From an uncultured Prochlorococcus sp. (GTDB taxonomy: Bacteria > Cyanobacteriota > Cyanobacteriia > PCC-6307 > Cyanobiaceae), in NCBI GenBank assembly GCA_902620895.1, contig CACNJU010000004.1, positions 1 through 64,000 on the forward strand: DNA of 64,000 nucleotides, read 5' to 3'. A model generated the notes under the pieces. The model was not told the DNA's origin and ran no database searches. It saw only the letters and a program-made list of their open reading frames with translations. Positions 10,157 through 26,780 of this stretch are shown in pieces; positions within the stretch are counted from its first letter, which is position 1, and each line of letters starts with the position of its first letter. Position numbers and translations under genes: made by a program.

Positions 10157-10687
10157 TTAATTTGCATACCAAAATGCACATTTTGAACCTCTAGGTTCTA
10201 ATGTCCAACCTTGTCTTTTATAAAATGAAACCACTTCGGCATCAGCAAAAAGGGTTACTTTAGAAATTCCAATATTTTTCAATTCTTTTAGGACATATTT
10301 CATTAACTCTTTCCCCAATCCAAGTCCTTGATAGACAGGGTTAATAGCCACATCCCAAACTGTTGCTTCTAGAATTCCATCACCAGTGCATCTTGCAAAT
10401 CCTACTAGTCTGGGGAATTTATCATCATGACGCCATAACCCAACCACCAAAATACTGAAATCTAAAGCTCTTTTTACCCTCCTTATAGGTCTTCTGCTCC
10501 AACCAACAGTTTGCAAAAGTTGATCTAGTTCTATTAGATCTAAATCTTTATTTATACTACATACAAATATTTCTTCTTTATTTGTTTGAGTGAACTCATA
10601 AGAATTTAAACCATAGAGATCTATCAGCTCTTCCCTTGATAAAGTGTTTGATTTTTTTATTAACGATCCTCGGTTTCTAAAAATCAT
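10157..10687 (-). CDS. GNAT-family N-acetyltransferase (Ycf52-like)
   Basis: The 176-residue protein has the GNAT acetyl-CoA binding core: VWDVAINPVYQGLGLGKELM (motif A, about 108-127), followed by KVTLFADAEVVSFYKRQGW near the end (motif B). An N-terminal extension includes LLQTVGWSRRP, a segment shared with the Ycf52 proteins of red-algal plastids and the plant plastid acetyltransferases. The acceptor (protein or small amine) is not known from sequence. Its ATG shares one base with the stop codon of the upstream ABC transporter, which suggests translational coupling. Confidence 0.85.
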   Translation of the reverse strand: MIFRNRGSLIKKSNTLSREELIDLYGLNSYEFTQTNKEEIFVCSINKDLDLIELDQLLQTVGWSRRPIRRVKRALDFSILVVGLWRHDDKFPRLVGFARCTGDGILEATVWDVAINPVYQGLGLGKELMKYVLKELKNIGISKVTLFADAEVVSFYKRQGWTLEPRGSKCAFWYAN

Positions 10688-12483
10688 TAAAAATTCACGA
10701 ATCCTTTTTGTTGAAGCTCAGAGAGCTGAAAATATAAACCCTTTTTCAGTCTCAATTCACTATGTGTTCCCTCTTCAACTAATGATCCCCCTTTTAAGAC
10801 TAAAATCTTATCCGAACTTTCAATGGTGGCTAATCTGTGAGCTATTACTAATGCAGTTCTTTTTGAAAGAATTCTCTCAAGATCTTTCTGCAAAGTAGCC
10901 TCTGTAGAGGGATCCATAAACGCTGTTGCTTCGTCCATTATTAAAACAACAGGATTTCTAATCGCTACTCGAGCTACTGATAGAAGTTGTCTCTCTCCAG
11001 AAGAGAGATTTCCCCCTCTTTCTCTTAGTAAGGTGTTCAAGCCTTCTGGTAATTTTTGTAATAAATTATCTAACCCTAATTCGTTACAAAGATTTTCTAA
11101 TTCAAGATTGTCTACATTGGAATTTAGTTTTAAATTATCTGCGACATTTCCACTAAAGATAAAGGTATCTTGCAAAACTACTCCCAACATATTTCTAAGA
11201 GTTGCAATAGGAATATCTTTGATATCTATGTCGTCGATAAAAATTTGGCCTGACTGAGGCTCATACAATCTACATAAAAGTCTTATTATGGTGGTTTTAC
11301 CTGAACCAGTTGGCCCTACAAAAGCCACATGCTCTCCTGGATTGATCTTGAAAGATAAATTTTTTATAATATGTTCTCCTTCGTTGTAGAAAAAATTAAC
11401 ATTCTTGAACTCAATTTTGCCCTTAAATTTTTTATTTACATTTTCAGGATTTTCTAAAAAATGTTTTGCGGAAATAGAGTCCTTAATCTGTATTTCTTCA
11501 TCCAATAATTCATTTATTCTTTCTACAGCTGTTAAACCTCCTTGGATCTGAGTAAATCTTTCTGCAAGCTGTCTTAGAGGCTCAAAAAGTCTTTGCGAAT
11601 ATAAAATAAAAGTTGTTAATGTTCCTAAACCAATATTTCCAGAAGTGACAAGATATCCTCCAACTGCCAAAACCAAGGAAACTGCGGCAAGAGAAATCCA
11701 TTCTATAAATGCCGAAATACTACTGTCATAGAATATTGTTCCATTTACTGCTTTTTTATAAGCAACTCCAGTATTAGAAAATTTCTTGCTATTGAAAGCC
11801 TCTCTTCTGAACATCTGAACGACTTCTAAACCTTGAAGATTCTCCTGAAAATCAGAGTTGAGTTGAGACAATTCTTCTCTTACTTGATAATTGGCTCTTC
11901 TATAACGTTTTTGGAGCCAAATAATGAAATATGAAACTGGGATTTGAGTCAAAAGTAATAAAATAGCAAGCCCTCTATCAATTGAAAGCATTGTCAAAGA
12001 AATTACTATCAGACTAACGAAGTCGGCAATGACCCCAACTGCCCCACTACCAAAAACCTCGGCTAAAGCATCAACATCATTTGTTAATCTCGTTAATAAT
12101 TTCCCTACAGGCATTTTATCGTGATACTTAAGAGATAAAGATATTGAATGATCAAAAAGTTCTCTTCTTATTCTTGCTGTCAAACGTTGACCCACTGCCT
12201 GGATATTGTAAGTTTGGTATCCCTGCAAAACTAATCTGAATAATACAGTTATTAATAAAGTCAGGATTATGGCATTTATTGACTGCCCAAAGAAAGTTTT
12301 ACTTAGCCAAACATCTGTAGTTTCATTCTTTAGAATAGTAATTGCTTGACCAACTAATAGTGGTTGAATAGCTCCAGAGAAAGAAACAGGTAACAAAACT
12401 ATCAAGATTAGATAGATTGTTTTTTTATCTTTAGTTAAATATTTACCTAACTTTTTAATCCTTCGAAAATCTTTAAAAAACAT
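10687..12483 (-). CDS. ABC exporter, fused membrane and ATPase domains
   Basis: This 598-residue MsbA/multidrug-type half-transporter probably works as a homodimer in the inner membrane. Residues about 20-330 form the six-helix type I exporter domain. The C-terminal 240 residues are the nucleotide-binding domain with Walker A GPTGSGKTT, the signature LSSGERQ (Ser in place of the usual second Gly), Walker B VVLIMDEAT and the switch His in IAHRLAT. The substrate (lipid, drug or peptide) cannot be assigned. It lies 12 bp downstream of hisG on the same strand and overlaps the following GNAT gene by one base. Confidence 0.92.
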   Translation of the reverse strand: MFFKDFRRIKKLGKYLTKDKKTIYLILIVLLPVSFSGAIQPLLVGQAITILKNETTDVWLSKTFFGQSINAIILTLLITVLFRLVLQGYQTYNIQAVGQRLTARIRRELFDHSISLSLKYHDKMPVGKLLTRLTNDVDALAEVFGSGAVGVIADFVSLIVISLTMLSIDRGLAILLLLTQIPVSYFIIWLQKRYRRANYQVREELSQLNSDFQENLQGLEVVQMFRREAFNSKKFSNTGVAYKKAVNGTIFYDSSISAFIEWISLAAVSLVLAVGGYLVTSGNIGLGTLTTFILYSQRLFEPLRQLAERFTQIQGGLTAVERINELLDEEIQIKDSISAKHFLENPENVNKKFKGKIEFKNVNFFYNEGEHIIKNLSFKINPGEHVAFVGPTGSGKTTIIRLLCRLYEPQSGQIFIDDIDIKDIPIATLRNMLGVVLQDTFIFSGNVADNLKLNSNVDNLELENLCNELGLDNLLQKLPEGLNTLLRERGGNLSSGERQLLSVARVAIRNPVVLIMDEATAFMDPSTEATLQKDLERILSKRTALVIAHRLATIESSDKILVLKGGSLVEEGTHSELRLKKGLYFQLSELQQKGFVNF

Positions 12484-12495
12484 TTAGCTAATCTT

Positions 12496-13134
12496 CTATA
12501 AAGCATTAGTTGATTCTATTGATAAAATAGTATCTCTGAGATGATTATCATCTAACCTCATAGATAAAGGATTTCCAATTAGTCTTGCAGTAGAGTAATA
12601 AAGATCATCTATTTTAATTAAACCATTCTCTTTAAGAGTCTTTCCAGTTGCCACCAAATCAACTATTGCCTCTGCCATACCTGTTATAGGACCAAGCTCG
12701 ACTGATCCTGTCAAATGAACTATTTCTACAGGAATATTTAATTCTTCAAAATAAGATCTTGCTGTTTTTATAAATTTACTTGCCACTTTACAATTCGCTG
12801 GAAGATCAGTTGGTTTTGAATAATTGCTATTTTTCTTAACCGCCAACGACATATGACAGCCACCAAATCCTAAATCTAATAACTTGGCGATTTTTAATTC
12901 AGATTCTCGTAAAACGTCATACCCAACAATACCCAAATCAGCCTGACCATAACTTACATAAACAGGCACATCTCCATTTCTTACTAATAAAGCTTTTGCC
13001 CTTTTGCAATTTGATTCAAAGGTTAATGATCTATTATTTTCGTCCAACGCATCAGAGAAATCTAATCCAGCTCTTTTAAAAGTTGAAATTGAATCTTTTA
13101 ACAGAGCTCCTTTTGGTAAAGCTATAGTAAACAT
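12496..13134 (-). CDS. hisG: ATP phosphoribosyltransferase catalytic subunit, short form
   Basis: HisG catalyses the first step of histidine synthesis, joining ATP and PRPP. The 212-residue length identifies the short form, which lacks the C-terminal regulatory domain and works with HisZ; no hisZ is in this window. Visible features are the N-terminal [23 protein letters not shown], and the PRPP site [19 protein letters not shown]. The start ATG at 13134 is 40 bp from the start of the divergent metallo-beta-lactamase-fold gene, so the two promoters must lie inside or close to each other's coding sequence. Confidence 0.95.
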
Positions 13135-13174
13135 AGATCAATTTCTTCCAAGAGTTCTTCATTCTAAGTTAACA

Positions 13175-13915
13175 ATGGAATTTAATAAAGCTCTAAATAT
13201 AATCGGACTTAGAGTTTTAAGTGACAACGTTATTTGGTTGTTGGTAAAAGATAAATCCGTTATTGTTGTGGATCCATCTGTTCACGAACCAGTTATTAGA
13301 TATATAAATGAAAACAATTTTCACTTAGAAGCTATTTTGCAAACTCATCATCATTCAGACCATATTGGAGGGACGAAGTCTCTTATTGATGGATGGCCAA
13401 ATGTAAAGGTGATTGCTTCCTCCAAAGAAAAAAAGCGAATACCTTTTCAAAATGTATCTGTAGAGGATGGAGAAACTTTAAATATTTTAGGTGAAGAAGT
13501 AAAAATAATTGAAGTATTGGGACATACAAGCTCACATATTGCCTTCTTTTTTAAAGGTGAAAATCCTGTTCTTTTTATTGGTGACACATTATTTTCTGGA
13601 GGTTGTGGAAGAATTTTTGAGGGAACATATCAACAAATGTATTCTTCGCTAAAAAGAATCAAATCTTTACCAAAAAATACTCTCATATATTGTGCGCATG
13701 AATATACAAAGGCAAATATATTATGGGCATTGAATCTTAAGCCTAAAGATCAAGATATAAAAAATAAACTTTTGGAAGTTGAAAAAAAACTTTCTCTTAA
13801 TGAATTGACAATTCCATTTTTACTTGATGAAGAGATGAAAATAAACCTTTTCTTAAGAGCAAAAAATTTAGAAGAATTTACTTTTTTAAGAGCAAATAAA
13901 GATTTATGGGTTTAA
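13175..13915 (+). CDS. gloB: Hydroxyacylglutathione hydrolase (glyoxalase II-like)
   Basis: This 246-residue metallo-beta-lactamase-fold hydrolase is expected to split S-lactoylglutathione in methylglyoxal detoxification. The zinc-binding motif [10 protein letters not shown] is present, followed by [23 protein letters not shown] and the late ligand region [10 protein letters not shown]. The frame stays open upstream to 13004, inside hisG. I chose the ATG at 13175 because family members begin a few residues before the first strand and the extra sequence overlaps hisG antisense. The C-terminal domain is somewhat short, as in many cyanobacterial members. RidA follows after 24 bp. Confidence 0.9.
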
Positions 13916-13939
13916 ATAGATAGGTATCTTCTTAAAAAA

Positions 13940-14332
13940 ATGTCTCCAAAACAAGTAATTAAAACATCAAATGCGCCAGATCCAGTAGGACCTTATAATC
14001 AAGCAATAAAAGCGGGAGATTTTATCTTTTGTTCTGGTCAAATTGCTATAGACCCAGCTTTAAATGAAATAACATGTTTAGGTGATATTGAGAAGGAAAC
14101 TATTCAAGTTTTAAAAAATCTCTCAGAAGTTCTTAAAGCTGGTGGAGCCAAAATAGAGGATGTAATAAAAACAACTATTTACTTAACTGACTTAAGTAAT
14201 TTTCAAATTGTCAATAAAATTTATAGTGATTTTTTTAATATAGAGAATCCTCCTGCAAGAGCCTGTGTGGAAGTTTCATCTCTACCAAAAGGAGTTTTAG
14301 TTGAAATAGATTGCGTCGCTTTTTTAGATTAA
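13940..14332 (+). CDS. ridA: RidA-family enamine/imine deaminase
   Basis: RidA proteins hydrolyse reactive enamines and imines such as 2-aminoacrylate made by PLP enzymes. The 130-residue length is normal. Signature pieces are PVGPYNQAIKAGDFIFCSGQ at the N-terminal end and ARACVEVSSLPKGVLVEIDCVA near the C-terminus, the latter with the Arg that binds the substrate carboxylate and the catalytic-site Glu. It forms a trimer in known cases. It lies 24 bp downstream of the glyoxalase-II-like gene on the same strand. Confidence 0.95.
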   Translation: MSPKQVIKTSNAPDPVGPYNQAIKAGDFIFCSGQIAIDPALNEITCLGDIEKETIQVLKNLSEVLKAGGAKIEDVIKTTIYLTDLSNFQIVNKIYSDFFNIENPPARACVEVSSLPKGVLVEIDCVAFLD

Positions 14333-14417
14333 TTTCTAATTATTGAGAAATTTGAAATAAGAACCAATTATGCACCATAGTTGTATAGATTATTAGTTGA
14401 TAATTCATCTTTGATCT

Positions 14418-14645
14418 ATGTCAGCAGCTAAGCTTAATATAGATGAACTAGAAGCAGGTTATCCTTTATTTTGCAAAGCTCTTAGACTATTAATTTTAAA
14501 AGGTAACTCAGCTAAAGATATAGAAAAGACAGTTTGTTGGAGTCATCTTGAAACTTTAAATAGATGTCTACCAGGTAGATATAAAGCCCCCACGTATTTA
14601 ATGGCTTTAATCAAAAGAGATATTGCTAAGCCTAATAATTACTAA
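14418..14645 (+). CDS. Small conserved protein, DUF3136-like
   Basis: I do not know a function. The 75-residue soluble protein starts with an ATG at 14418 and is rich in helix-forming residues. It has three Cys residues, in LFCKALRL, TVCWSHLE and NRCLPGRYK. The TVCWSHLETLNRCLPGRYK stretch matches my memory of the DUF3136 family found in marine Synechococcus and Prochlorococcus. The middle (GNSAKDIEKTV) could be a small helix-turn-helix, but this is weak. It converges on the end of the carboxysome operon, with 6 bp separating its stop from that of the acRAF-like gene. Whether it has anything to do with carboxysomes is unknown. Confidence 0.7.
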   Translation: MSAAKLNIDELEAGYPLFCKALRLLILKGNSAKDIEKTVCWSHLETLNRCLPGRYKAPTYLMALIKRDIAKPNNY

Positions 14646-14651
14646 TAAGGA

Positions 14652-14891
14652 TTAATCTTCCAAATAAAACTTATCAATATCCTTTGAAAAGTCCTTTTCT
14701 TTGTCTGAAATTTCTTTATTACTTAAAAATATTGAAAGACTTACAAAATTCTTGCCGAAGCTGATATTTGGATAGATATCCCTTTCTTTACACAATTTCT
14801 CAATTTTCCCCATGAATTTACTAATTTTTGAGTATTGCTCAAATTCAAATCTTTTTTCAATTCTCAAAGGTGATTCTCTTTCATTCCACAT
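14652..14891 (-). CDS. Pterin-dehydratase-like carboxysome RuBisCO assembly factor (acRAF-like)
   Basis: This 79-residue protein sits at the downstream end of the carboxysome operon, where alpha-cyanobacteria encode a degenerate pterin-4a-carbinolamine dehydratase-like protein proposed to help form I RuBisCO assembly (acRAF). The pattern fits: WNERESPLRIEKRFEF, a helix with FMGKIEKLC, then PNISFGKNFVSLSIF, corresponding to the dehydratase strand order. The usual paired catalytic His residues are not seen, so dehydratase activity is unlikely. The gap to csoS4B is 74 bp, larger than other spacers in the operon, and holds TATAGT about 30 bases before the ATG. It may therefore have its own promoter. 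Confidence 0.75.
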   Translation of the reverse strand: MWNERESPLRIEKRFEFEQYSKISKFMGKIEKLCKERDIYPNISFGKNFVSLSIFLSNKEISDKEKDFSKDIDKFYLED

Positions 14892-14965
14892 TTAATTCTT
14901 TATTCAAGGCTAATTACACTATACCTTCAACAAAGTTTCATAATAAATTTTTGAAGTTAAAATTT

Positions 14966-15214
14966 TTAGTCGCTCTCCCAGTAATCAATAATACCGCCAA
15001 TGGTTAAATCTGTTTGAACTTCTGGATTAGGGCATGCAAATCGAGCTGCAGAGCCACTAGCAGTAAAAACCCAGTTACCTTCTCTAGCACCAACAGGATC
15101 AACAGCAACTAATTTCTTTCCTTTATTATTTTCCAAAATTCGTAAATTCATATGACCCAAGCCTGCGACTCTTTGAGTACATACCATCCTTCCTAGAACC
15201 TTCATTATTTCCAT
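14966..15214 (-). CDS. csoS4B: Carboxysome shell vertex protein CsoS4B
   Basis: CsoS4B is a pentamer-forming BMV (CcmL/EutN-type) protein that caps icosahedral vertices of the alpha-carboxysome shell. The 82-residue protein has KVLGRMVCTQRVAGLGHMNLR at the start of the fold (about 4-24), then VAVDPVGAREGNWVF and the closing LTIGGIIDYWE. I chose the ATG at 15214 rather than the in-frame ATG three codons later because a strong AAGGAGG ribosome-binding site lies 9 bases upstream. It follows csoS4A after 18 bp. A paralogous pair such as this is usual in cso operons. Confidence 0.95.
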   Translation of the reverse strand: MEIMKVLGRMVCTQRVAGLGHMNLRILENNKGKKLVAVDPVGAREGNWVFTASGSAARFACPNPEVQTDLTIGGIIDYWESD

Positions 15215-15232
15215 AATTTATATCCTCCTTTT

Positions 15233-15484
15233 TTATGACTTGTCAGGATCCCAATGATCTATTATTCCAACAATCGTTAAATCGCTTGGATAAGATTTGC
15301 TTCCTGCAGCTTCCCTAGCAGCAGAACTTCCAACACAAATCACCCAATCTCCTGGTTTACAGCCAACAGCATCTACAGCAACCTTTTTTGAAGAACCATC
15401 CAATACAACCTGAAGATGTTTGTGTTCAAAACCAGGGATCCTATTGGTTGATACAAGTGGTTTTACAACCTTACAAATTAACAT
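15233..15484 (-). CDS. csoS4A: Carboxysome shell vertex protein CsoS4A
   Basis: CsoS4A is a vertex pentamer of the alpha-carboxysome, paralogous to CsoS4B. The 83-residue protein shows the BMV fold pieces ICKVVKPLVSTNRIPGFEHK (about 3-22), VAVDAVGCKPGDWVICVGSS and LTIVGIIDHWD. Its ribosome-binding site GAGGAGG lies 10 bases before the ATG and overlaps the last codons of csoSCA, so initiation may be coupled to translation of csoSCA. It is the sixth gene of the csoS1-to-csoS4B run. Confidence 0.95.
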   Translation of the reverse strand: MLICKVVKPLVSTNRIPGFEHKHLQVVLDGSSKKVAVDAVGCKPGDWVICVGSSAAREAAGSKSYPSDLTIVGIIDHWDPDKS

Positions 15485-15486
15485 AA

Positions 15487-17016
15487 CTAATGAGCCTCCT
15501 CTGTTTTTTTATCTAAAGACATTCCAATAATTTGGGCGGAATGAATGTTGTCCCTATCTCTAATAGTAGAGCAAGTGTGTAACAACCCTTGATCAACTAA
15601 ATTTTTATACCTAATTGATATCGCATTATTAACTCTTTCACAATCATTTATTGCCCTCTCTTTTGCTCCGGGGACTTTTCCAGAGTAATCAAATCTAATT
15701 ACCACCGGAATAGGTAGATCTTGAGAAACATTTAATCCAGTAAAAATCTTCACTCCTACATCTAAATCTGGAGCCCCTTCTTCTACTGTATCTAAATGAG
15801 CAAAATAAGTTAAATTTCTGAGATGTACTTCTTTGAAACCTATCCCAACTCCAATAAACCTCTCTGCATGTCCAATATCTTCATAAGAACCATTATGAAA
15901 ACTCTTAACATAATCAATTTGAGAAATATTATTGACAATTAATTTATAAGTAAATTTTTCCAGTCCACTGAGTTTATCTTTTGAAGATTGCTTAGAAATT
16001 ATCTGGCAAATTTCTCTTTCTGCATCCTCTCTTGAGAAATTTATTGTTGAATTATAAATTTCTAATGTAGAAATAGTTTTTTCTAAATCTATACCTCCAT
16101 CGCTAGTTGATAAATGTATTTTTAATGAATCAGTGTCTGTATCAAGTCCAATTAACATTAAATCCACAGAAGCTCCGCAGCAAAAGCTATTCTCTACAGC
16201 CTCTTTGAAAGCAAATAATTTATTTCTACCTTCTGCTGCAGCTAACTCGTCATTACTCCCATGAGCTGCGCATCCCTGATGCAAAGGATCTACTGAACTA
16301 AAGTGATAAGTTACAACTTTTAAGTACCTGGTTTCTTTATGAGCTTCATTAGGAACATTCTCTCTATATCTTTTATGTTCAGTTTTTACCCATCGATTAA
16401 CAGTATTTTCAATATCAAACAGTGCTCCAGCATGGGATCTTCTTCTTACTGAACTAAAAGGTATTCTCATTACATAAGCAACTGAATGAGCTAATCTTCC
16501 ATCTGAACAAGGGGTTATATCAAGTAAATGTATTCCACAATCTAAGAGAAATTTTTCAAAGTCTTCGGCATCCCTACTTCCAGCAGCACCTTCAAGTGGA
16601 TCATTTTTAAAAAAATTGTCGCTTAGTTTCTCATGCTGTTTGAAAGCACACCATGCATATAAAGCTCGCATATCAAGAGGTTTAACCCAAGATTTATCTA
16701 ATACATGTAGGGGTAAATCTATTCCCAAATTTTTTCTTGATATTTTCTGTGCCTTATTTATAAAATCTTCGTGATGTTGAATTCGAGCAATTTCCTTGAG
16801 AGTTGGGACAATTTCATCAAAATCACTTTTTATTTTGCTTTCATACCTAAATAGATTTTCATTTTGGATATTATTGGTTAATTTATGAGACTTTCCAGAA
16901 TTCCTGAAATTATTTGATTCTTTAGTTTGTATATGGATATTTTCAGTAAAAGTTTTCATTGGAGCTGTTGGCCCCAATGTGAAGTTCTTGGCTTTAGCCA
17001 GTCCTCTTAAAGGCAT
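15487..17016 (-). CDS. csoSCA: Carboxysomal carbonic anhydrase CsoSCA (CsoS3)
   Basis: CsoSCA converts bicarbonate to CO2 inside the carboxysome. The 509-residue protein is a divergent beta-class enzyme. After an N-terminal, partly disordered segment (about 1-60) and a helical domain, the catalytic domain has TPCSDGR (Cys170 zinc ligand, Asp172-Arg174 dyad), His238 in TYHFSSVDP and Cys249 in GCAAHGSND. The C-terminal domain is the symmetry-related copy that lost its metal site. The N-terminus in known systems binds RuBisCO, and the peptide around residues 10-40 is the candidate here. It lies 7 bp after csoS2 and 2 bp before csoS4A. Confidence 0.97.
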   Translation of the reverse strand: MPLRGLAKAKNFTLGPTAPMKTFTENIHIQTKESNNFRNSGKSHKLTNNIQNENLFRYESKIKSDFDEIVPTLKEIARIQHHEDFINKAQKISRKNLGIDLPLHVLDKSWVKPLDMRALYAWCAFKQHEKLSDNFFKNDPLEGAAGSRDAEDFEKFLLDCGIHLLDITPCSDGRLAHSVAYVMRIPFSSVRRRSHAGALFDIENTVNRWVKTEHKRYRENVPNEAHKETRYLKVVTYHFSSVDPLHQGCAAHGSNDELAAAEGRNKLFAFKEAVENSFCCGASVDLMLIGLDTDTDSLKIHLSTSDGGIDLEKTISTLEIYNSTINFSREDAEREICQIISKQSSKDKLSGLEKFTYKLIVNNISQIDYVKSFHNGSYEDIGHAERFIGVGIGFKEVHLRNLTYFAHLDTVEEGAPDLDVGVKIFTGLNVSQDLPIPVVIRFDYSGKVPGAKERAINDCERVNNAISIRYKNLVDQGLLHTCSTIRDRDNIHSAQIIGMSLDKKTEEAH

Positions 17017-17023
17017 TATTTAC

Positions 17024-19321
17024 TTAACCTCTTGCACCACCTGAAAAGGTAACAAGTTGTCCTTCACGAGTATTTCCACTAGATCCAGTTATCAAGAAAT
17101 CTGGTTTTTCTGTTTCCTCATTTCTTTTAACTTCCATAGGGGGCATTGCGCTCATAAATCCTGCTCTTGATGGATTTCGCTTTCTAGAAGAAGCTCCCTC
17201 TGTACCTGTTACCTTATCGCCGCGATCCCAATCATCACCAGTTACGTTTCCTACTGATTGTCCTTCACCAGTAATTCTTGATGCGACTCTTTTTTCTGGT
17301 GTCTTTGCAGCACGTTCTGTCTCTTCAATTTCCATTTTTTGTTTATAAGTAATATTTTTATTCGGTTCAAATCTAAATTTTTCAGTGCCAGTTACCTTAT
17401 CAACTGCCATATCAAAAGGCCCTGTTACCTTTGAACCATTTTCATATTCATTACCTGTAACTCCTTGAGTATTTTTTTCAGAATATTTATCTCTTGATGG
17501 TGATTTAACAGAGAATTCGTTCCAAGAGTTACCTGCTGACTTTTCCGGATTCGCATAAGCAGTATCATTTGGAGGATTATCACAAGCTTGTGAGAACTGA
17601 TCTCCTCCAACATAAGGAGTCCCTGTTAGGTTTTTACATGCACCTTTCTTAGCACCTGTCATCACTCCGCCAATTCCTGGTTGTTGTCCTGTAAGTCTGG
17701 CATTTGAATTATTTCCTGAATTAACTGTTGATCGGGATTTCATATCTTGAGAAATCTCTGTACTACAATTATCATTTATCTGATCTAAGCCTGCGTATGG
17801 TGTTCCTGTTAGCACTTTGCATGAACCTGGTTCATCTCCAGTTACTATTTTTGATCTTCCTGTCATAGTCCCGCTAATTAAATTTGACTTTGAAGAAAGG
17901 CTTAAACCTACTTTTCTAGCTTCTGGTTTTGGTTTTGAACCGCAAAACTTGTCATATTGTTGAGATCCTATGTACTCATCACCAGTTACATTCTTGCAAC
18001 TCCCATGCTCATTGCCTGTCATATGGTCTGATCTTCCTACACCTGTACCTGTTACATTATTCCCATTAAGAGTGTTATAAATGCCTACTTTTTCAAATGC
18101 TTTACCTTTTGGATTTGGCTCTGAACCAAGATATTGATCTCCAGTTAACTGATGTCCAGAACCTGATTCATCTCCAGTAACCAGAGTGGATCTACCTGGA
18201 AGAGATCCAGATACTTTTAATCCATCAGTTGTAGTACTGTGTTTAACCTTTGAAGGATTTTTTGGAACATCTCCACAATAGTTCTGCGATTGATTAGCAG
18301 ATACATATTCAGTACCTGTAAGGTTTTTACAAGTCCCAGGCTCATCGCCTGTGACCCTCTCAGATCTACCGACTTCATTTCCAGTTACTTTATTACCTGA
18401 TGTTGTAGAGGTAACAGTAGATCTAAGTGGCTGTTTATAACTTGGTCTATCTTGACAAAATTGGTCAGCCACTTCTGCTCCCATATATTGAGTACCAGTG
18501 ACAGTTCTGCATGTACTTGCTTCATTACCTGTAGTTTTCACAGATCTATTAGCTTGTGTTCCAGTAACTATTTGACCTGAATCAGTTTCGCTTTTACCAA
18601 CTTTCCAGCTTGCATCAGCAATATTTTGTTTGGCCCCATTTTTATTTGGACCACATGGTCTAAATTTACCATTACCTTTTTTGCCTGTGGCACCAGTTTT
18701 ACTTCTTAGATCTCTCACTCTCTGAGAAATCTCTCTACTACTTAAATCTGGGTCTCCCCTTCTAGCTAAAGAAGCTGCACTAGTATTTTGTTTAGTTGCT
18801 GATTTCCCATGCTTAGATTGAGCTTCTCTTCTCGCTAAAACAATATCTCTACTTGTATTAGTAATAGGCTTTCTCTTCTTATTAATTCTTCTTTTAACAT
18901 TTGGTTTTGATAATTTAATTTCTGAATTATGTAAATTTTGAACTTCTTGATTTTTGCTTGTGGCAGTTTTAACTGTGTTTACGGGACTTTCTTTTTTAAC
19001 ATCAGTACGAGTTCTATCGGATGAAGTTATTGCTGATTTCCCATGGGTAGACATTGCTTTTCTTCTCTCTATTACTAACTCTTTACTAGATAAATTTGTG
19101 GGTGAAGACTTTCTATTTACCTGAGTTTTTGGAATATGTTTTATAGATGTTGTAGAAAAGTTTTGATTGTTAGGAGAAGACTGAGTCCCAGAAATCTGTA
19201 TATCTTGAGAAGATCGAACTCTATCTTTAGTAGTTGAAGAATAGGCAGCAGCTTTTTTACCGCTATCACTCATCGCCTTTCTTCTTTCTAATGCAATCTC
19301 TCTACTGGTTTTTTTTGACAT
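17024..19321 (-). CDS. csoS2: Carboxysome scaffold protein CsoS2
   Basis: CsoS2 is a largely disordered scaffold that links RuBisCO to the shell. The 765-residue protein has three regions. The N-region (about 1-215) has four repeats, including ERRKAMSDSGKKA, ERRKAMSTHGKSA, ARREAQSKHGKSA and a weaker fourth; such basic helices bind RuBisCO. The M-region (about 235-590) has six repeats of the VTG...R...TG...C...TG.Y type. The C-region (about 600-765) ends in the conserved anchor TREGQLVTFSGGARG. I use the ATG at 19321; an upstream TTG three codons earlier is open but adds nothing. The third M repeat lacks the Cys residues found in most others. A hairpin lies just upstream. Confidence 0.96.
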   Translation of the reverse strand: MSKKTSREIALERRKAMSDSGKKAAAYSSTTKDRVRSSQDIQISGTQSSPNNQNFSTTSIKHIPKTQVNRKSSPTNLSSKELVIERRKAMSTHGKSAITSSDRTRTDVKKESPVNTVKTATSKNQEVQNLHNSEIKLSKPNVKRRINKKRKPITNTSRDIVLARREAQSKHGKSATKQNTSAASLARRGDPDLSSREISQRVRDLRSKTGATGKKGNGKFRPCGPNKNGAKQNIADASWKVGKSETDSGQIVTGTQANRSVKTTGNEASTCRTVTGTQYMGAEVADQFCQDRPSYKQPLRSTVTSTTSGNKVTGNEVGRSERVTGDEPGTCKNLTGTEYVSANQSQNYCGDVPKNPSKVKHSTTTDGLKVSGSLPGRSTLVTGDESGSGHQLTGDQYLGSEPNPKGKAFEKVGIYNTLNGNNVTGTGVGRSDHMTGNEHGSCKNVTGDEYIGSQQYDKFCGSKPKPEARKVGLSLSSKSNLISGTMTGRSKIVTGDEPGSCKVLTGTPYAGLDQINDNCSTEISQDMKSRSTVNSGNNSNARLTGQQPGIGGVMTGAKKGACKNLTGTPYVGGDQFSQACDNPPNDTAYANPEKSAGNSWNEFSVKSPSRDKYSEKNTQGVTGNEYENGSKVTGPFDMAVDKVTGTEKFRFEPNKNITYKQKMEIEETERAAKTPEKRVASRITGEGQSVGNVTGDDWDRGDKVTGTEGASSRKRNPSRAGFMSAMPPMEVKRNEETEKPDFLITGSSGNTREGQLVTFSGGARG

Positions 19322-19351
19322 AATCTTCAAATGTGAAACTCTTGTGAAAAA

Positions 19352-19380
19352 CTTTCTCCAAAAATATTTTTTGGAGAAAG
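19352..19380 (-). terminator. Perfect 13-bp hairpin plus U-tract between cbbS and csoS2
   Basis: Read in the direction of the operon, a 13-base arm (19380-19368) pairs perfectly with 19364-19352 around a 3-base loop and is directly followed by TTTTT (19351-19347 region). This has the form of an intrinsic terminator. It lies in the 81-bp spacer 22 bases after the cbbS stop and 31 bases before the csoS2 ATG. Since csoS2 and the shell genes must still be made, it is more likely a leaky terminator or a processing and stability element. The stem is AT-rich near the loop, so efficiency is uncertain. Confidence 0.75.
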
Positions 19381-19402
19381 ATATTTACTACATAAAGTAG
19401 AT

Positions 19403-19744
19403 TTAACGTCCTTGGAAAACTACAAAAGCTGTTCCTTGGCTTTGAGTGTAAGCATCGTATCCGATGATTCTTACATGGTGATCAGGGTATGCTCTATGAC
19501 ATGCCTCTAATTCACTTACAACCAAGTTAAGATCTTTTTCCCCAAAGAATGGGAGCTTCCAATAAGACCAATAAGTTTGCATACTTCCGCTAGGATGAAC
19601 ATGCTCAATAACAGGACTCCAGCCTTGAGCAATTATGTATGCAATTTGATCGTATATTTCTTCCTGGGTCATCGGTGGTAAGAAACCGAATGTTTCCAGG
19701 GTTGCAACTGTTTGATAGTCGCCTACTGTGCTCTGGAAAGGCAT
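19403..19744 (-). CDS. cbbS: RuBisCO small subunit, form IA
   Basis: The small subunit caps the RuBisCO L8 core to make L8S8. The 113-residue protein has the expected N-terminal TVGDYQTVATLETFGFLPPM, the QIAYIIAQGWSPVIEH helix-strand region, and MQTYWSYWKLPFFGEKD, with the late HVRIIGYDAYTQSQGTAFVVF. The short loop between strands A and B is typical of carboxysomal form IA. It is separated from cbbL by 93 bp containing a 9-bp hairpin and is followed by a terminator-like hairpin before csoS2. Confidence 0.98.
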   Translation of the reverse strand: MPFQSTVGDYQTVATLETFGFLPPMTQEEIYDQIAYIIAQGWSPVIEHVHPSGSMQTYWSYWKLPFFGEKDLNLVVSELEACHRAYPDHHVRIIGYDAYTQSQGTAFVVFQGR

Positions 19745-19770
19745 AATTAATTTAAATGTGAATGAAATTA

Positions 19771-19786
19771 CTCGTAATAGAACGAG
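19771..19786 (-). other. Small 5-bp stem-loop in the cbbL-cbbS spacer
   Basis: CTCGT (19771-19775) pairs with ACGAG (19782-19786) around a 6-base loop, 27 bases before the cbbS start. It is short and could be chance, but it stands next to a stronger 9-bp hairpin in the same spacer. Confidence 0.35.
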
Positions 19787-19798
19787 ATTTGTAGAAGT

Positions 19799-19823
19799 TT
19801 GAGGAGAAGAAATATCTCCTCAA
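19799..19823 (-). other. 9-bp hairpin in the cbbL-cbbS spacer
   Basis: TTGAGGAGA (19799-19807) pairs perfectly with TCTCCTCAA (19815-19823) around a 7-base loop, just after the cbbL stop. No run of U follows in the direction of transcription, so it is not a standard terminator. It may protect the 3' end of cbbL mRNA or set cbbL/cbbS decay rates. Confidence 0.6.
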
Positions 19824-19837
19824 TTTTGAAATCTGGT

Positions 19838-21253
19838 TTAACCTTGAACGTCTAGTTTGTCGACGGTATCAAATTCAAACTTAATTTCCTTCCAAGTTTC
19901 AAGAGCAATAGCTAATTCAGGACTGTGTTTAGCAGCTTCCATAAGAATGTCTCTACTCTCTTTTTCGATTTCGCGTCCAGCATTACGTGCTTTTACACAA
20001 GCTTCTAGAGCGACCCTGTTGGCTGCAGCTCCAGCAGCTGAACCCCATGGATGACCATGTGTTCCTCCACCGAACTGAAGACAAGAATCATCTCCAAAAA
20101 TCGCTAGGAGTGCAGGCATATGCCACACGTGAATACCACCTGATGCGACAGCAAATACTCCTGGCATGGAACCCCAATCTTGATCAAAGAAATTACCTCT
20201 TGATCTATCTTCGGGAACAAATGACTCTCTTAAGTTGTCAATGTAACCAAGAGTTGTTTGGCGATCACCTTCTAGTTTTCCAACAACTGTTCCAGTATGT
20301 AATTGATCTCCTCCTGAGAGTCTCAAACATTTTGCTAGAACCCTGAAATGGATACCGTGTTTTGGATGTCTATCAATAACAGCATGCATAGCTCTATGAA
20401 TATGTAGAAGCATGCCATTTTTACGACACCAGTTTGCTAATCCAGTATTTGCAGTAAAACCGCCAGTTATATAATCATGCATGATGATTGGCATATCTAG
20501 CTCTTTTGCAAATTCAGCTCTTTCGTAAAGCTCTTCTGGAGTATTGGCCGTACAGTTTAGGTAATGACCCTTAACTTCTCCAGTTTCTTGCTGAGCAAGC
20601 TTAACTGCTTCTGCAACAAACTCAAATCTTTCTCTCCAACGTTGGAATGGCTGAGAGTTTATATTCTCATCGTCCTTCGTTAAATCAAGACCACCTCTAA
20701 GGCACTCATATACAACTCGACCATAGTTTTTACCAGATAATCCTAATTTAGGTTTAATGGTACAACCAAGAAGAGGCCTTCCATATTTGTTTAAACGATC
20801 TCTTTCAACTACGATTCCATTTGGGGGACCACCGCAAGTTTTGATGAAAGCGATTGGGAATCTAATATCTTCTAGACGTAAGTGTCTAAGAGCTTTAAAT
20901 CCAAAAACGTTTCCTACTAGAGATGTTAATACGTTTGTAATAGAACCTTCTTCAAAAAGATCTAAAGGATATGCAATAAAAGCATAAAAAGCTTCAGGAT
21001 CTCCAGGAACGTCTTCGATTCGATAACAACGTCCTTTATAAAATTCTAAATCTGTAAGTAACTCGGACCAAACTGTTGACCAAGTACCTGTTGAAGATTC
21101 AGCTGCAACAGCTGCTGCAACTTCTTCTCTTGGAACACCTTCCTGACCTGTACATTTGAAACAGGCTAGTAAATCGGTGTCTAGGGGTACATATTCTGGA
21201 GTCCAGTAGGTATCTCTGTACTCCTTTACCCCTGCATCATACTTCTTACTCAT
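19838..21253 (-). CDS. cbbL: RuBisCO large subunit, form IA
   Basis: This is the catalytic subunit of the CO2-fixing enzyme. The 471-residue protein is full length. Key residues are Lys167 in CTIKPKLG, the carbamylated Lys193 in [14 protein letters not shown] with Asp195 and Glu196 as magnesium ligands, the mobile-loop lysine in VGKLEGDRQ, and HVWHMPALL with SGGIH. The sequence type and the link with csoS genes place it in form IA, which alpha-cyanobacteria are thought to have gained laterally from proteobacteria. It lies 68 bp after csoS1. No RuBisCO activase gene (cbbX or cbbQ/O) is seen in the window. Confidence 0.99.
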
Positions 21254-21321
21254 AAGGATAAATTTAGGTCTGTGTAGGGAAAATAATTATTGTGCAAAAT
21301 TTATAAGTTTTGCTTTATTTA

Positions 21322-21633
21322 TTAGTCCTTCTGACCAAGAAATTCACCGTTACCAAGAGCAGGTTCAACTTCTCTATGAGGACGAGCAATAATGTGAGCT
21401 GCAACTAAACCGTCGCCAACTCTTTCACAAGCATCAGCACCAGCTCTTACAGCTGCGTTAACTGCGCCTGTTTCTCCTCTAACTAATACTGTGACATAAC
21501 CGCCACCAACGAATTCACGACCAATAAGGCGAACTTCTGCAGCCTTTGTCATTGCGTCAGCTGCTTCGATTGCAGGTACAAGTCCGCGTGTCTCGATCAT
21601 GCCGAGAGCGATACCCATTGTTTCTGTAGCCAT
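21322..21633 (-). CDS. csoS1: Carboxysome shell hexamer protein CsoS1
   Basis: CsoS1 is the main facet protein of the alpha-carboxysome. It forms hexamers with a small central pore. The 103-residue protein is a single BMC domain: ALGMIETRGLVPAIEAADAM at the N-terminus, AEVRLIGREFVGGGYVTVLV with the pore-forming loop, then GAVNAAVRAGADACERVG and a C-terminal tail HIIARPHREVE. It is the first gene of the operon. It is preceded by a 327-bp leader and promoter region with palindromes and a direct repeat. Only one csoS1 copy is visible here, in contrast to proteobacterial operons with two or three. Confidence 0.98.
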   Translation of the reverse strand: MATETMGIALGMIETRGLVPAIEAADAMTKAAEVRLIGREFVGGGYVTVLVRGETGAVNAAVRAGADACERVGDGLVAAHIIARPHREVEPALGNGEFLGQKD

Positions 21634-21651
21634 TGTCTACTAATTACTAAA

Positions 21652-21665
21652 TGTGGAATGTTCAA
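21652..21665 (-). repeat. 14-bp direct repeat, copy near the csoS1 start
   Basis: TGTGGAATGTTCAA on the plus strand (TTGAACATTCCACA in the csoS1 direction), ending 18 bases before the csoS1 ATG, so probably in the 5' untranslated leader. An identical copy lies at 21883-21896. Confidence 0.85.
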
Positions 21666-21687
21666 TCCGAAGAATGCTTCATTAAGT

Positions 21688-21697
21688 ACTTATAAGT
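21688..21697. promoter_or_regulatory. 10-bp perfect palindrome ACTTATAAGT
   Basis: This perfect inverted repeat in the csoS1 leader shares its ACTTAT/ATAAGT halves with the larger palindrome at 21743-21757. It could be a second regulator site or part of an alternative promoter (TTGACT overlaps it on the minus strand). Confidence 0.35.
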
Positions 21698-21742
21698 CAA
21701 GCGTTTTCGATAAAATCTCCATTAATGTTTTTTCTATCATTC

Positions 21743-21757
21743 ATAAGTTAAACTTAT
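21743..21757. promoter_or_regulatory. 15-bp palindrome overlapping the csoS1 -10 region
   Basis: ATAAGTT-A-AACTTAT is a perfect 7+1+7 inverted repeat that overlaps the proposed -10 box of the csoS1 promoter. Its position is that expected of a repressor operator. The regulator is unknown. Confidence 0.45.
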
Positions 21758-21783
21758 CACCCTTGGTACTATTGATATGTCAA
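21754..21783 (-). promoter_or_regulatory. Candidate sigma-70 type promoter of the carboxysome operon
   Basis: On the minus strand a consensus -35 TTGACA (21783-21778) is followed after 18 bp by TGATAA (21759-21754). Transcription would start near 21747 and give a leader of about 110 nt before csoS1. It is the best -35 match in the spacer. The spacing is 1 bp longer than optimal, and it has not been tested. Confidence 0.5.
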
Positions 21784-21882
21784 TACTTATGCAATTTAGT
21801 TAGTGCATCAAAACATACTGTTGTGTTAAGAAAAAATTTACATTATGTTATTTCCGTACGAGGCAGGCCCTGTCTACACAGG

Positions 21883-21896
21883 TGTGGAATGTTCAA
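21883..21896 (-). repeat. 14-bp direct repeat, promoter-distal copy
   Basis: Identical to 21652-21665 (TGTGGAATGTTCAA). It lies about 100 bp upstream of the proposed csoS1 -35 box and next to the hairpin CCTGT-CTAC-ACAGG at 21869-21882. Confidence 0.85.
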
Positions 21897-21960
21897 CCTT
21901 TCCTGTCTCCGTATCTAGCTTTGAAGTAAGATAATATTCTCTATAAATTTAATTGTAATT

Positions 21961-22545
21961 TTGAAACTTCCAGTCCTAACTATTGCGAGTGGCAACCAAA
22001 CTAAAGTTTCTGAAATTTCGGAAATGCTGGATGTTTTGTCTTTAAAGGTTCAGAAGCAACCAGATTATTTAAATGTAGAAGAGACTGGAGACACATATTT
22101 TGAGAATGCACTTTTAAAAGCAAAAGCAGCTGCTTTAGAGACAAAAACCTGGGCATTAGCTGACGATTCAGGCCTTGAAGTGGATATCTTAGATGGTCGA
22201 CCAGGCATATATTCTGCTCGATATGCCAAAAATAACGCTGAAAAAATTAAAAAATTAATTAATGAACTTTCTGAAAGTCCTTACAGGAGCGCGAGATTTA
22301 TAAGTTGTATGGTTTTATGTGATCCCTCAGGAAACTTAGTGAAGGATACAACTGGAATATGCTGGGGAGAAATTCTTAAGACCCCAAAATATCCAAATGG
22401 GGAGTTTGAATCTATTTTTTGGGTAAAAGAAGCTAACTCTGTTTATGGAGAGCTCTCACAATCACAACTAAGTAAGTTAGGGAGCAGGGGTAAAGCCGCC
22501 AAGATTATGTCACCTTACCTCAAAAAAGAAATTGGTTTAAATTAA
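21961..22545 (+). CDS. rdgB: RdgB/HAM1 non-canonical purine NTP pyrophosphatase
   Basis: The enzyme hydrolyses dITP, ITP and XTP to monophosphates and so keeps deaminated purines out of nucleic acids. The 194-residue protein starts with TTG and has the family's TIASGNQTKVSEI (about 6-18), ALADDSGLEVDIL with the catalytic Asp pair (about 65-77), PGIYSARYA, and a C-terminal region with SQLSKLGSRGKAA where members usually have a (S/N)H.S.R.KA-type end. It stands between csoS1 and csoS1D in the opposite orientation. This arrangement separates csoS1D from the main carboxysome operon; a functional link to carboxysomes is not evident. Confidence 0.95.
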   Translation: MKLPVLTIASGNQTKVSEISEMLDVLSLKVQKQPDYLNVEETGDTYFENALLKAKAAALETKTWALADDSGLEVDILDGRPGIYSARYAKNNAEKIKKLINELSESPYRSARFISCMVLCDPSGNLVKDTTGICWGEILKTPKYPNGEFESIFWVKEANSVYGELSQSQLSKLGSRGKAAKIMSPYLKKEIGLN

Positions 22546-22552
22546 AAAATTC

Positions 22553-23323
22553 TCAATAATTTGAAATTTCATCAATTGCTCTTATAGCAGCTGCTGCTGC
22601 TTCTTCTACATCTCCTTCTTTCCCTGCCAAAGTTAATCTACCAAAAGCGCCAACTGCCTTTACATCAACAACAGTTATATTTGATGCTTTTTCTGCTTCA
22701 TTTGCTGCTTTTAAGACATACCCAGCCGGTTCAGTTTCTAATATGAACATGCTCATTCCAGATTGAATCATTGATCCACTTCTGTTTTGTCTATTTATTA
22801 AAACAGCATGATCTGGAGTAATAGCTCGAATAACTTCTGTCCAACTTGTTGAAGGTTTGGTTCTTTTTCTAACTTCACTTCCAATAGCATCTAAAACAAC
22901 ATCACCAGAATGTAAAACAGTACTTTGATCTTTGTGGTAAAGAGCAAGAGAGCCAAATGCTCTTTCAACAATCATCTGACCAAGTCTTACATTACTTGCT
23001 TTTAAGGCAATATCAGTGACTCTATGCACAGCCATCCCAGGTGAAACTTCCATCCAAAGGCATGAATCTCCAGGTATAGGTAAAAAACCTCTACTAACCG
23101 TCCCCATATATGCAGCTAATTGAGGTTGAAGAGAATCCAAAAAAACATATGTTCTCAACTCAATTTGCTCAACTTGACTTGCTTGTCTGGACACCAAAGA
23201 CTTTTCTGAATCAGTTGTTATAAAACAGCTTGCACCACTGGCCTGAGATTGCACCTCAGATCCTGTTACAAGAGAACTGCCTTTTTTTCGTTCCCCTCTG
23301 TTTAAACTAGAAGTTGGTTCCAT
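22553..23323 (-). CDS. csoS1D: Carboxysome shell pseudohexamer CsoS1D
   Basis: CsoS1D is a tandem-BMC protein that forms trimers with a large gated pore, thought to admit bulky metabolites such as RuBP. The 256-residue protein has an N-terminal polar extension (about 1-48), a first BMC-like domain ([19 protein letters not shown] to about 150), and a second one ([20 protein letters not shown] to the end), the latter ending with [12 protein letters not shown]. The conserved pore residues (the Glu-Arg pair of studied CsoS1D) are not assigned here. It is convergent with rdgB, 7 bp apart, and needs its own promoter in the 97-bp spacer shared with the next plus-strand gene. Confidence 0.95.
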
Positions 23324-23420
23324 TCACGCGACTATAACGGATAATGGTTCATTTTTTCTATTAAATTTACTTGCATGCTTCCCACAAAACGATAACTTCA
23401 AGTAAAAGATATGCATTTTT

Positions 23421-23789
23421 ATGGGAACTTCTCAAAAAAAAGAACCAAATGTTTCTGGTACTGAAAAAGAATTAACTCCTGATCAAACTCTTGGATTAGT
23501 TAGCCTAAGCTTGATGCAAAAACTATCTCAGAAAGACCCATCTTTTAGTTGGTTAGAAGAAGATAAAATTGAAAAAGTAAATCTTAAGAACCTTAGAGAT
23601 AGATTGGAGTTAACGCAATTAGCTATAGATACTGGAGCACCTTTAACCACTTCAGAAGTGACAGTTTTAATTGGGGCAAAGCCCGGTAAATCTAAGTTAG
23701 AAAGAGCAGGATTACTAGCCACGAAAATAGCTAGAAATGTATGGAAGATTTCAAAAATAAGTCAAGGAAATTCCTTCTACAGAAATTAA
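23421..23789 (+). CDS. Unknown protein with a possible excisionase/MerR-like helix-turn-helix
   Basis: I do not recognise a named family. The 122-residue soluble protein has a charged N-terminus, a predicted helical middle (LVSLSLMQKLSQ, NLKNLRDRLELTQLAIDTG), and a C-terminal segment PLTTSEVTVLIGAKPGKSKL...LATKIARNVWKIS (about 75-114). That segment follows the pattern of short helix-turn-helix domains of the excisionase/MerR type: a TTSEV-like first turn, then a second helix, then a strand pair with a W. It is divergent from csoS1D and 157 bp upstream of chlN on the chlN strand, so a regulatory role for either neighbour is conceivable but unproven. Confidence 0.6.
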   Translation: MGTSQKKEPNVSGTEKELTPDQTLGLVSLSLMQKLSQKDPSFSWLEEDKIEKVNLKNLRDRLELTQLAIDTGAPLTTSEVTVLIGAKPGKSKLERAGLLATKIARNVWKISKISQGNSFYRN

Positions 23790-23937
23790 AATACGCCCCA
23801 AAAGTTTTTTTCATAATTCCCATTTAAGTATTTAAACATTCATATAAGTTTTTTAAATGTGTTCATTTTGTAAGAGAACTTATTAATTACTTTCTTAAAT
23901 TAAAAAGTTTATGCAAGCTTGAAATATAAGCTCTTGA

Positions 23938-25203
<1,266 letters not shown>

Positions 25204-25208
25204 AAACT

Positions 25209-26780
25209 ATGGAATTAACTCTTTGGACTTATGAAGGACCGCCACATGTTGGTGCTATGAGAATTGCCTCTTCAATGAAAGACATTCATTATGTGCTTCA
25301 TGCCCCCCAAGGAGATACATATGCAGATCTTCTCTTCACAATGATCGAGAGGAGGGGGCAAAGGCCTCCAGTAACTTACACAACTTTTCAGGCTAGAGAC
25401 CTTGGAGGCGATACAGCTGAATTAGTGAAGAAAAATATTAAGGAAGCGGTTGAACGATTCAAACCCAAAACTCTTTTAGTCGGAGAAAGTTGTACAGCAG
25501 AACTTATCCAGGACCAACCTGGAGCTCTTGCGAAAGGGATGGGATTTGATATGCCGATTGTGAATCTTGAATTACCTGCTTATAGCAAGAAAGAAAATTG
25601 GGGTGCCTCAGAAACCTTTTATCAATTAACAAGAACCCTTTTAAAAGAAAAAGTAAGCTATTCAGAGAAAATAAGTCCTCATAGGTGGAAGGAATTCGGG
25701 CGTAGACCAAAAGTCAATATACTTGGCCCTTCGTTACTAGGATTTAGATGCCGAGATGATGTAATCGAAATCCAACGCATACTTTCAGAGCAAGGAATAG
25801 ATACAAACGTAGTTGCTCCATTAGGTGCTAGTCCAGATGATATTGAAAGACTAATTGATGCTGAAATAAATATTTGTCTTTATCCAGAAATTGCGGAAGC
25901 ATCATGCGAATGGCTTAAACGGAACTTTGGAATGGAATATACAAACGCTATTCCAATTGGAATAAAAAATACAATCGAATTTATAAATGAAGTTCATAAG
26001 AAATTAGATCTTCCATTAACGAATAAAAAAGAATTAGAAAATAAATCAAAACTTCCTTGGTACTCAAAATCAGTTGACTCAAATTATCTGACTGGCAAAA
26101 GAGTTTTTATTTTTGGGGATGGAACACATGCAATTGCAGCAGCCAAAATTGCTAAGGAGGAATTAGGTTTTGAAGTAGTTGGTCTTGGAACATACAGCAG
26201 GGAGATGGCCAGGCAAGTAAGAGCTACTGCAAAAGATCTAAATATAGAAGCTCTGATAACTAACAATTATCTAGAAGTGGAAGATGCCATGAAAAAAGCA
26301 TCCCCTGAACTAGTTTTAGGGACCCAAATGGAAAGGCATAGTGCAAAAAGACTCGGGATTCCATGCTCAGTAATTAGTACTCCAATGCATGTTCAAGATG
26401 TCCCTGCAAGATATAGCCCTCAAATGGGATGGGAAGGAGCAAATGTAATTTTTGATGACTGGGTACATCCCCTAATGATGGGCTTAGAAGAGCATCTTAT
26501 TGATATGTTCAAACATGACTTTGAGTTTGTTGATGGTCATCAAAGCCATTTAGGACATACAGCGACAAATACAAAGGATATTTTAAATTGTGACGAAAAA
26601 AAAGAAAAAAATAGTAAAGAAGGAATTATCTGGACTGAGTCTGGCAGAGCTGAATTAACAAAAGTTCCATTTTTTGTAAGAGGTAAAGTTAAAACAAATA
26701 CTGAAAAATACGCAATATTGAGAGGAATTCCAGAGATAAGCGATGAAACTCTTTACGATGCCAAAGCATATTTCAGTTAA
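25209..26780 (+). CDS. chlB: Light-independent protochlorophyllide reductase subunit B
   Basis: ChlB pairs with ChlN in dark-operative protochlorophyllide reductase. The 523-residue protein starts [18 protein letters not shown]. It has Asp36 ([10 protein letters not shown]), the unusual fourth ligand of the NB cluster, plus the conserved [10 protein letters not shown] and the substrate-side region [20 protein letters not shown] (about 393-412). The C-terminal [20 protein letters not shown] segment is the family's small helical domain, which covers the substrate. A stem-loop (ATGAGT/ACTCAT) lies shortly after its stop codon, and chlL follows after 189 bp, so chlL may have its own promoter. Confidence 0.98.

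Follow-up and report, generated by a model that had tools for sequence, protein, structure and literature searches.

The cbbS-csoS2 spacer and its hairpin

The window, by which we mean the whole stretch of 64,000 nucleotides (64 kb) analysed here, carries a carboxysome operon with the gene order csoS1, cbbL, cbbS, csoS2, csoSCA, csoS4A, csoS4B and acRAF. The spacer between cbbS and csoS2 is 81 nt long and contains a hairpin. The elements of this region are as follows.

17024-19321, minus strand: csoS2, the gene downstream of the hairpin (ATG at 19321)
19322-19346, minus strand: remaining csoS2 leader, with no second hairpin above shuffle level
19347-19351, minus strand: U-run TTTTT, abutting the stem with a gap of 0 nt
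19352-19380, minus strand: hairpin of the cbbS-csoS2 spacer, perfect over 13 bp, CTTTCTCCAAAAA-ATA-TTTTTGGAGAAAG
19381-19402, minus strand: linker of 22 nt from the cbbS stop to the base of the hairpin
19403-19744, minus strand: cbbS, the gene upstream of the hairpin (stop codon ends at 19403)
19745-19837, minus strand: cbbL-cbbS spacer, with a strong hairpin GAGGAGA...TCTCCTC but without a U-run, used as in-operon comparison

When we re-read the sequence, we found that the arms (19380-19368 and 19364-19352, minus strand) pair over 13 bp with no mismatch across a loop of 3 nt and that TTTTTGGAGAAAG is followed by TTTTTC. The original prediction had given the arms, the loop and the five T after cbbS exactly right, and the gene coordinates bear out its placement of the hairpin between cbbS and csoS2. 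Only four of the 13 pairs of the stem are G:C.

Folding of positions 19300-19440 (minus strand, RNAfold) gave -30.4 kcal/mol, compared with a shuffle mean of -20.46 (z -3.2), and none of 200 shuffles was as low. The hairpin by itself reaches -13.9 kcal/mol. Papers are cited here by their PMC numbers and from passages of their text. With 13 bp and this energy, the hairpin is stable by the standard for intrinsic terminators, since it lies beyond the cut-off of -10 kcal/mol of PMC13289151, and it also has the U-tract directly after the stem (TTTTT at 0 nt). When both strands of the window were scanned for G:C-closed hairpins with a score of at least 12, the cbbS-csoS2 hairpin had the top stem score (29.1) of the 174 hairpins found; the best stems in eight first-order Markov sequences of window length scored 21.8-27.8. 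Four hairpins in the 64-kb window combine a stem score of at least 14 with a tail score of at least 2.8. The stems of the other three score 14.6-16.0, and the cbbS-csoS2 hairpin is the sole strong hairpin with a U-rich tail; read on the opposite strand, its palindrome has a poor tail. A scan of positions 10000-26000 for terminator-like sites listed this hairpin first, and the number of sites (12, shuffle mean 9.3) is in itself unremarkable.

Searched against its own genome, the cbbS-csoS2 region matches itself alone, the second match being the palindrome on the other strand. In 400 kb of three other genomes, the stem of the lineage gave 2, 2 and 1 strand-matches (a palindrome counts on both strands). 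With one place in its own genome and few stem matches in the three others, a dispersed REP-like palindrome was rejected. Rfam covariance models found nothing at the gathering score in this region, the best match at a lax threshold being to a miRNA model on the opposite strand (E 0.69), and a known Rfam element was therefore rejected as the identity of the hairpin.

Setting within the operon

Long spacers follow csoS1 (68 nt), cbbL (93 nt) and cbbS (81 nt); the spacers csoS2-csoSCA, csoSCA-csoS4A and csoS4A-csoS4B are short (7, 2 and 18 nt). The csoS4B-acRAF spacer (74 nt) is more weakly structured (z -2.1) and the 72 nt 3' of acRAF contain no special structure, so that the operon's best terminator-like site lies mid-operon. 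The last gene of the operon ends 6 nt from a convergent open reading frame (14418-14645, plus strand), and no terminator-like site was listed at 14580-14652.

The arms of the cbbL-cbbS hairpin include TGAGGAG and CTCCTCA, which correspond to a portion of the Yfr1/Yfr10 loop motif and to its complement; when duplexes are predicted with the two Yfr10 copies of the genome, this site ranks fourth and third. Both copies (L312, L313) adjoin a Cyano-1 RNA (Rfam RF02362 beside RF01701).

Conservation of the hairpin in relatives

We detected CbbS in 154 of 200 genomes for the genus and in 268 of 272 for the family (34 of 34 genera), and 30 further loci were added from a search in which 38 of 38 genomes matched. 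Besides the window we read 249 loci, which overlap in part (some genomes were entered twice) and represent about 28 of the family's 34 genera. In 240 of these 250 loci we could identify a csoS2-like start; for the other ten, 130 nt 3' of cbbS, or the available contig, were taken. We sorted the loci into five groups (genus type/high-light, LL, LLI, marine Synechococcus-like and freshwater/other), the labels of which were assigned here, partly from the stem sequence and the genome size.

Of 167 distinct cbbS-csoS2 spacers (at least 60 nt), 152 contain a G:C-closed hairpin (loop of at most 10 nt) at a score threshold of 14. This threshold says little where spacers are GC-rich, as the marine Synechococcus-like calibration genome has 4134 hairpins of this kind in 400 kb, counting both strands. 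The pairing is thus retained in relatives, on which the original prediction had made itself dependent. Among the 15 spacers without a hit, 13 are of the genus type and two of the freshwater type (L224, L249). In the 13 genus-type spacers, the CTTTCTC and GGAGAAA arms enclose a larger loop, and each of the six that we folded forms the outer stem. In a shuffle test, which we judged to be the better measure than the threshold, 148 of 168 distinct spacers were equalled by no more than 2 of 40 dinucleotide shuffles, the best hairpin sometimes being a different one (e.g. in L013, L029, L032, L159, L222, L226, L227, L229, L233 and L239). The 20 spacers failing this test are the same 13 genus-type spacers and L020, L110, L131, L224, L245, L247 and L249.

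The median distance from the cbbS stop to the start of the hairpin is 22 nt in the genus type (range 17-27), 22 nt in LL (13-77), 22 nt in LLI (22-23), 20 nt in marine Synechococcus-like (19-35) and 17 nt in freshwater spacers (4-45). In each of 12 genus-type genomes, both the cbbL-cbbS spacer (median z -4.61) and the cbbS-csoS2 spacer surpassed almost all shuffles in stability; the csoS1-cbbL spacer did so in 4 of these genomes. Among 12 genomes each from LL, LLI and marine, the cbbS-csoS2 spacer was stable by this measure in 10, 10 and 8. Marine Synechococcus-like spacers (L182 and others) have a second hairpin between the U-rich stretch and csoS2; this was found in 16 of 21 spacers (at most 5 of 100 mononucleotide shuffles as good), and the window has no comparable one.

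Two proteobacterial cso operons were reached, both of them on plasmids. On plasmid pTs417 of Candidatus Thiodictyon syntrophicum, the cbbS-csoS2 spacer (L270:3024-3249) consists of a long nested inverted repeat (-123 kcal/mol, z -6.03), which is perhaps an inserted palindromic element, and the spacer of Nitrobacter hamburgensis has no structure above chance (z -0.16). With one of two operons, conservation of the hairpin outside the cyanobacteria is unproven.

Turnover of the stem and compensatory changes

The stem types differ between lineages and include CTTTCTCC (the window's genus), AGCCTCG, TTAGCC, GAGCCCTGA and GGTCCCG or other forms. The 5' arm is present in 163 of the 165 loci taken as the window's genus; the two exceptions, L106 and L108, have instead a stem of the AGC(C/T) type seen in other genera. 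The genus-type rows, which were chosen by their arms, are silent on covariation because their outer eight pairs hardly vary.

For 41 sequences of another stem type (three alignable types), we found that 98.1% of 369 cells are paired as compared with 88.2% in shuffles; here, the rows were chosen by arm pattern, which favours pairing at the core, and the shuffles keep the column make-up but not relatedness. In slid controls, pairing falls to 18.7-49.6%. Double changes occur in five of nine pairs (shuffle mean 3.2, reached by 12 of 500 shuffles) and covariation amounts to 0.383 versus 0.196 in shuffles, with none of 500 as high. Further pair types are no more numerous than in shuffles (10 vs 10.6). 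The compensatory change for which the original prediction had proposed to align the spacers of relatives is present in this set.

The U-run after the stem

Between four and eight T directly follow GGAGAAA(G) in 79 of 91 distinct genus-type sequences, and the other 12 have none or one T. Under a strict rule (a run of at least four T beginning no more than 2 nt from the stem), we counted a U-run in 68 of 72 genus-type spacers, whereas 6.0 were expected from composition. The four exceptions carry AAATTTTTT and arise because the scan stops at the last G:C pair. The corresponding counts were 1 of 19 for LL (1.0 expected), 0 of 13 for LLI (1.2 expected), 2 of 21 for marine Synechococcus-like (0.0 expected) and 3 of 27 for freshwater spacers; in the 18 freshwater-type spacers usable for the composition test, none was seen and 0.2 were expected.

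Under a lax rule (at least four T in 8 nt, beginning 0-3 nt past the stem), the observed and expected numbers were 72 of 72 vs 50.6 (genus type), 16 of 19 vs 10.3 (LL), 13 of 13 vs 9.6 (LLI), 20 of 21 vs 2.8 (marine Synechococcus-like) and 10 of 18 vs 2.6 (freshwater-type). The marine Synechococcus-like and freshwater-type counts thus exceed what composition predicts; those of the two AT-rich Prochlorococcus-like groups (LL, LLI) hardly do. In 20 of the 21 marine Synechococcus-like spacers, a run of at least four T is offset by 2-5 nt from the stem. The idea that the U-run is confined to the window's genus was rejected, since it is true of stem-adjacent U-runs alone and most spacers in every group pass the lax rule. 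Judged from these sequences, the strict terminator form is a feature of the window's genus, and in marine Synechococcus-like and freshwater-type spacers the U-rich stretch close to the stem is genuine.

The cbbL-cbbS hairpin of genus-type genomes, which served as control, has a strict U-run in 7 and a lax one in 43 of 90 cases. As background, the lax rule is passed by 40%, 12% and 39% of all hairpins in 400 kb of a genus-type, a marine and an LLI-type genome. At gene ends defined by open reading frames in 400 kb, we found 13 hairpins in a same-genus genome, 16 in the LLI-type genome and 88 in the marine Synechococcus-like genome, of which 6, 7 and 6, respectively, have a strict U-run; these numbers are too small for a firm terminator threshold. 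Because strict U-runs are rare at the gene ends of the marine Synechococcus-like genome, their absence from the cbbS-csoS2 spacer there is weak evidence against termination.

Discussion

From the hairpin, its U-run, its position, its conservation and the compensatory changes, we infer with a probability of about 0.58 that in the window's genus this element works as an intrinsic terminator that leaks and would also protect the csoS1-cbbL-cbbS message at its 3' end. The hairpin would be a 3'-end element for this part of the carboxysome operon. A polymerase that has moved past cbbS would make the hairpin just beyond the reach of a ribosome stopping at cbbS and would pause at the U-run, where a share of the complexes would release. 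The hairpin would then guard the 3' end of the released message and the remaining polymerases would continue into csoS2-csoSCA-csoS4A-csoS4B-acRAF, the outcome being that the message for RuBisCO and shell exceeds that for CsoS2. A leaky terminator accounts for the adjacent U-run and for the position outside the ribosome's reach. The cell probably makes more RuBisCO than assembly protein in this way, by means of a hairpin that stops or protects many transcripts.

Conservation, compensatory change and the excess of U-runs in the genus (68 of 72 vs 6.0) favour the leaky terminator of the original prediction, whereas in sister lineages a directly adjacent U-run is mostly missing, although many of their spacers have U-rich sequence close by. 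This absence of the strict U-run from most spacers of other groups and the stem with four G:C pairs speak against a terminator, as do two figures from other bacteria: canonical intrinsic terminators end only 22% of transcription units in S. elongatus (PMC13289151), and 7 of 33 stem-loops in C. cellulolyticum are predicted as terminators, yet the downstream genes are transcribed (PMC4423207).

Since the hairpin occurs in sister lineages mostly without a stem-adjacent U-run, the main alternative, which the original prediction had also raised and which we consider rather unlikely but serious, stays in play, namely that all polymerases pass and that an endonuclease (e.g. RNase E in the U-rich stretch) cuts 3' of the hairpin, which would shield the csoS1-cbbL-cbbS message from 3' exonucleases. 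Such processing is in line with the strong structure of the cbbL-cbbS spacer (12 of 12 same-genus genomes), with the tight packing of csoS2, csoSCA, csoS4A and csoS4B, with the second hairpin past the U-rich linker in marine Synechococcus-like spacers and with the cellulosome operon, in which 28 of 33 stem-loops lack a U-run (PMC4423207). However, protection alone needs no adjacent U-run, and the window's genus keeps one; moreover, the long half-lives in MED4 belong to later operon genes. In that strain, 5 of 9 CO2-fixation genes fall into a long-half-life cluster, the operon members of which sit in the middle to end of operons (the passage gives no gene names), and decay sets in later with distance from the start (PMC2897979). 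This pattern could plausibly fit genes reached by read-through from an upstream promoter. Either termination or processing would raise the RuBisCO message above the csoS2 message, and one hairpin could do both.

The strong terminator form could also indicate a full terminator, with csoS2 and the later genes transcribed from a promoter of their own inside cbbS or the spacer. This appears improbable, because the sigma-70-like scan offered no good candidate for a second promoter: the sole match listed between the hairpin and csoS2 has a -10 element overlapping the csoS2 ATG, and promoter-like matches of this type in 10000-26000 are fewer than in shuffles (34 vs 51.8). We likewise give little credence to a binding site for a protein or an sRNA controlling csoS2. 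One example would be Yfr10, since csoS1 and csoS2 mRNA are enriched in Yfr10 pull-downs from MED4 (PMC6778093). The genome has two Yfr10 genes and the outer arms are almost invariant in the genus type (rows chosen by arms), but the arm sequences are wholly different between lineages and, in a duplex prediction that disregards accessibility, the hairpin is outside the ten best sites in the operon for either Yfr10 motif. Duplex prediction thus lends no support to a Yfr10 target site with complementarity to the loop motif. That the palindrome is functionless or a dispersed repeat is very improbable; some Markov sequences come near its stem score (27.8 vs 29.1), but it is single-copy in its own genome, takes a similar position in relatives and covaries in the 41-sequence set.

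It is possible, though on balance doubtful, that the hairpin is an old stoichiometry valve of alpha-cyanobacterial carboxysome operons. It would have been kept family-wide through several replacements of its sequence, and its mode would have changed between lineages: weak termination or processing where the U-stretch is offset, strict termination in this genus. The CsoS2:RuBisCO ratio would then have been tuned through the evolution of one RNA hairpin. The passages of the literature consulted leave unexplained how one operon gives far more RuBisCO than CsoS2, CsoSCA and vertex proteins. Purified carboxysomes of H. neapolitanus contain RuBisCO, CsoSCA, CsoS2A and CsoS2B at 13:1:2:2.5 (PMC12918739), which is the kind of imbalance that such an element could serve. 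In MIT9301, rbcL is among the top-expressed genes (PMC10294614). Carboxysome genes are now being transferred to chloroplasts and yeast, and synthetic carboxysome operons may be missing such a part; a conserved hairpin at a natural break point is a specific and mutable element to test.

Our literature searches, which covered mainly open-access papers, returned no report of a cbbS-csoS2 hairpin, and the passages of PMC2518516 contained no match for the genes or terminators of the carboxysome operon. Among known systems, intrinsic (Rho-independent) terminators share with this element the stem, the immediate U-run and the location just past a stop codon, whereas the cbbS-csoS2 element lies within an operon ahead of genes that still need expression, has only four G:C pairs and is a predicted terminator. 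In Halothiobacillus neapolitanus, the order cbbL, cbbS, csoS2 is the same and steady-state cso transcript levels track protein abundance (PMC2760150, citing Cai 2008); that system is compared by its transcript levels, the passage describing no mechanism of grading. The SRPS stem-loops of the cip-cel cellulosome operon (PMC4423207) likewise follow highly expressed genes in an operon for a large protein complex and are kept in relatives, and the cbbS-csoS2 hairpin resembles them in standing after a gene inside an operon with a downstream gene following; the difference is that most of those stem-loops have no U-run, whereas the window's genus keeps it. Intra-operon hairpins that set the stoichiometry of a complex are thus a known kind of element, as the cellulosome operon illustrates (PMC4423207).
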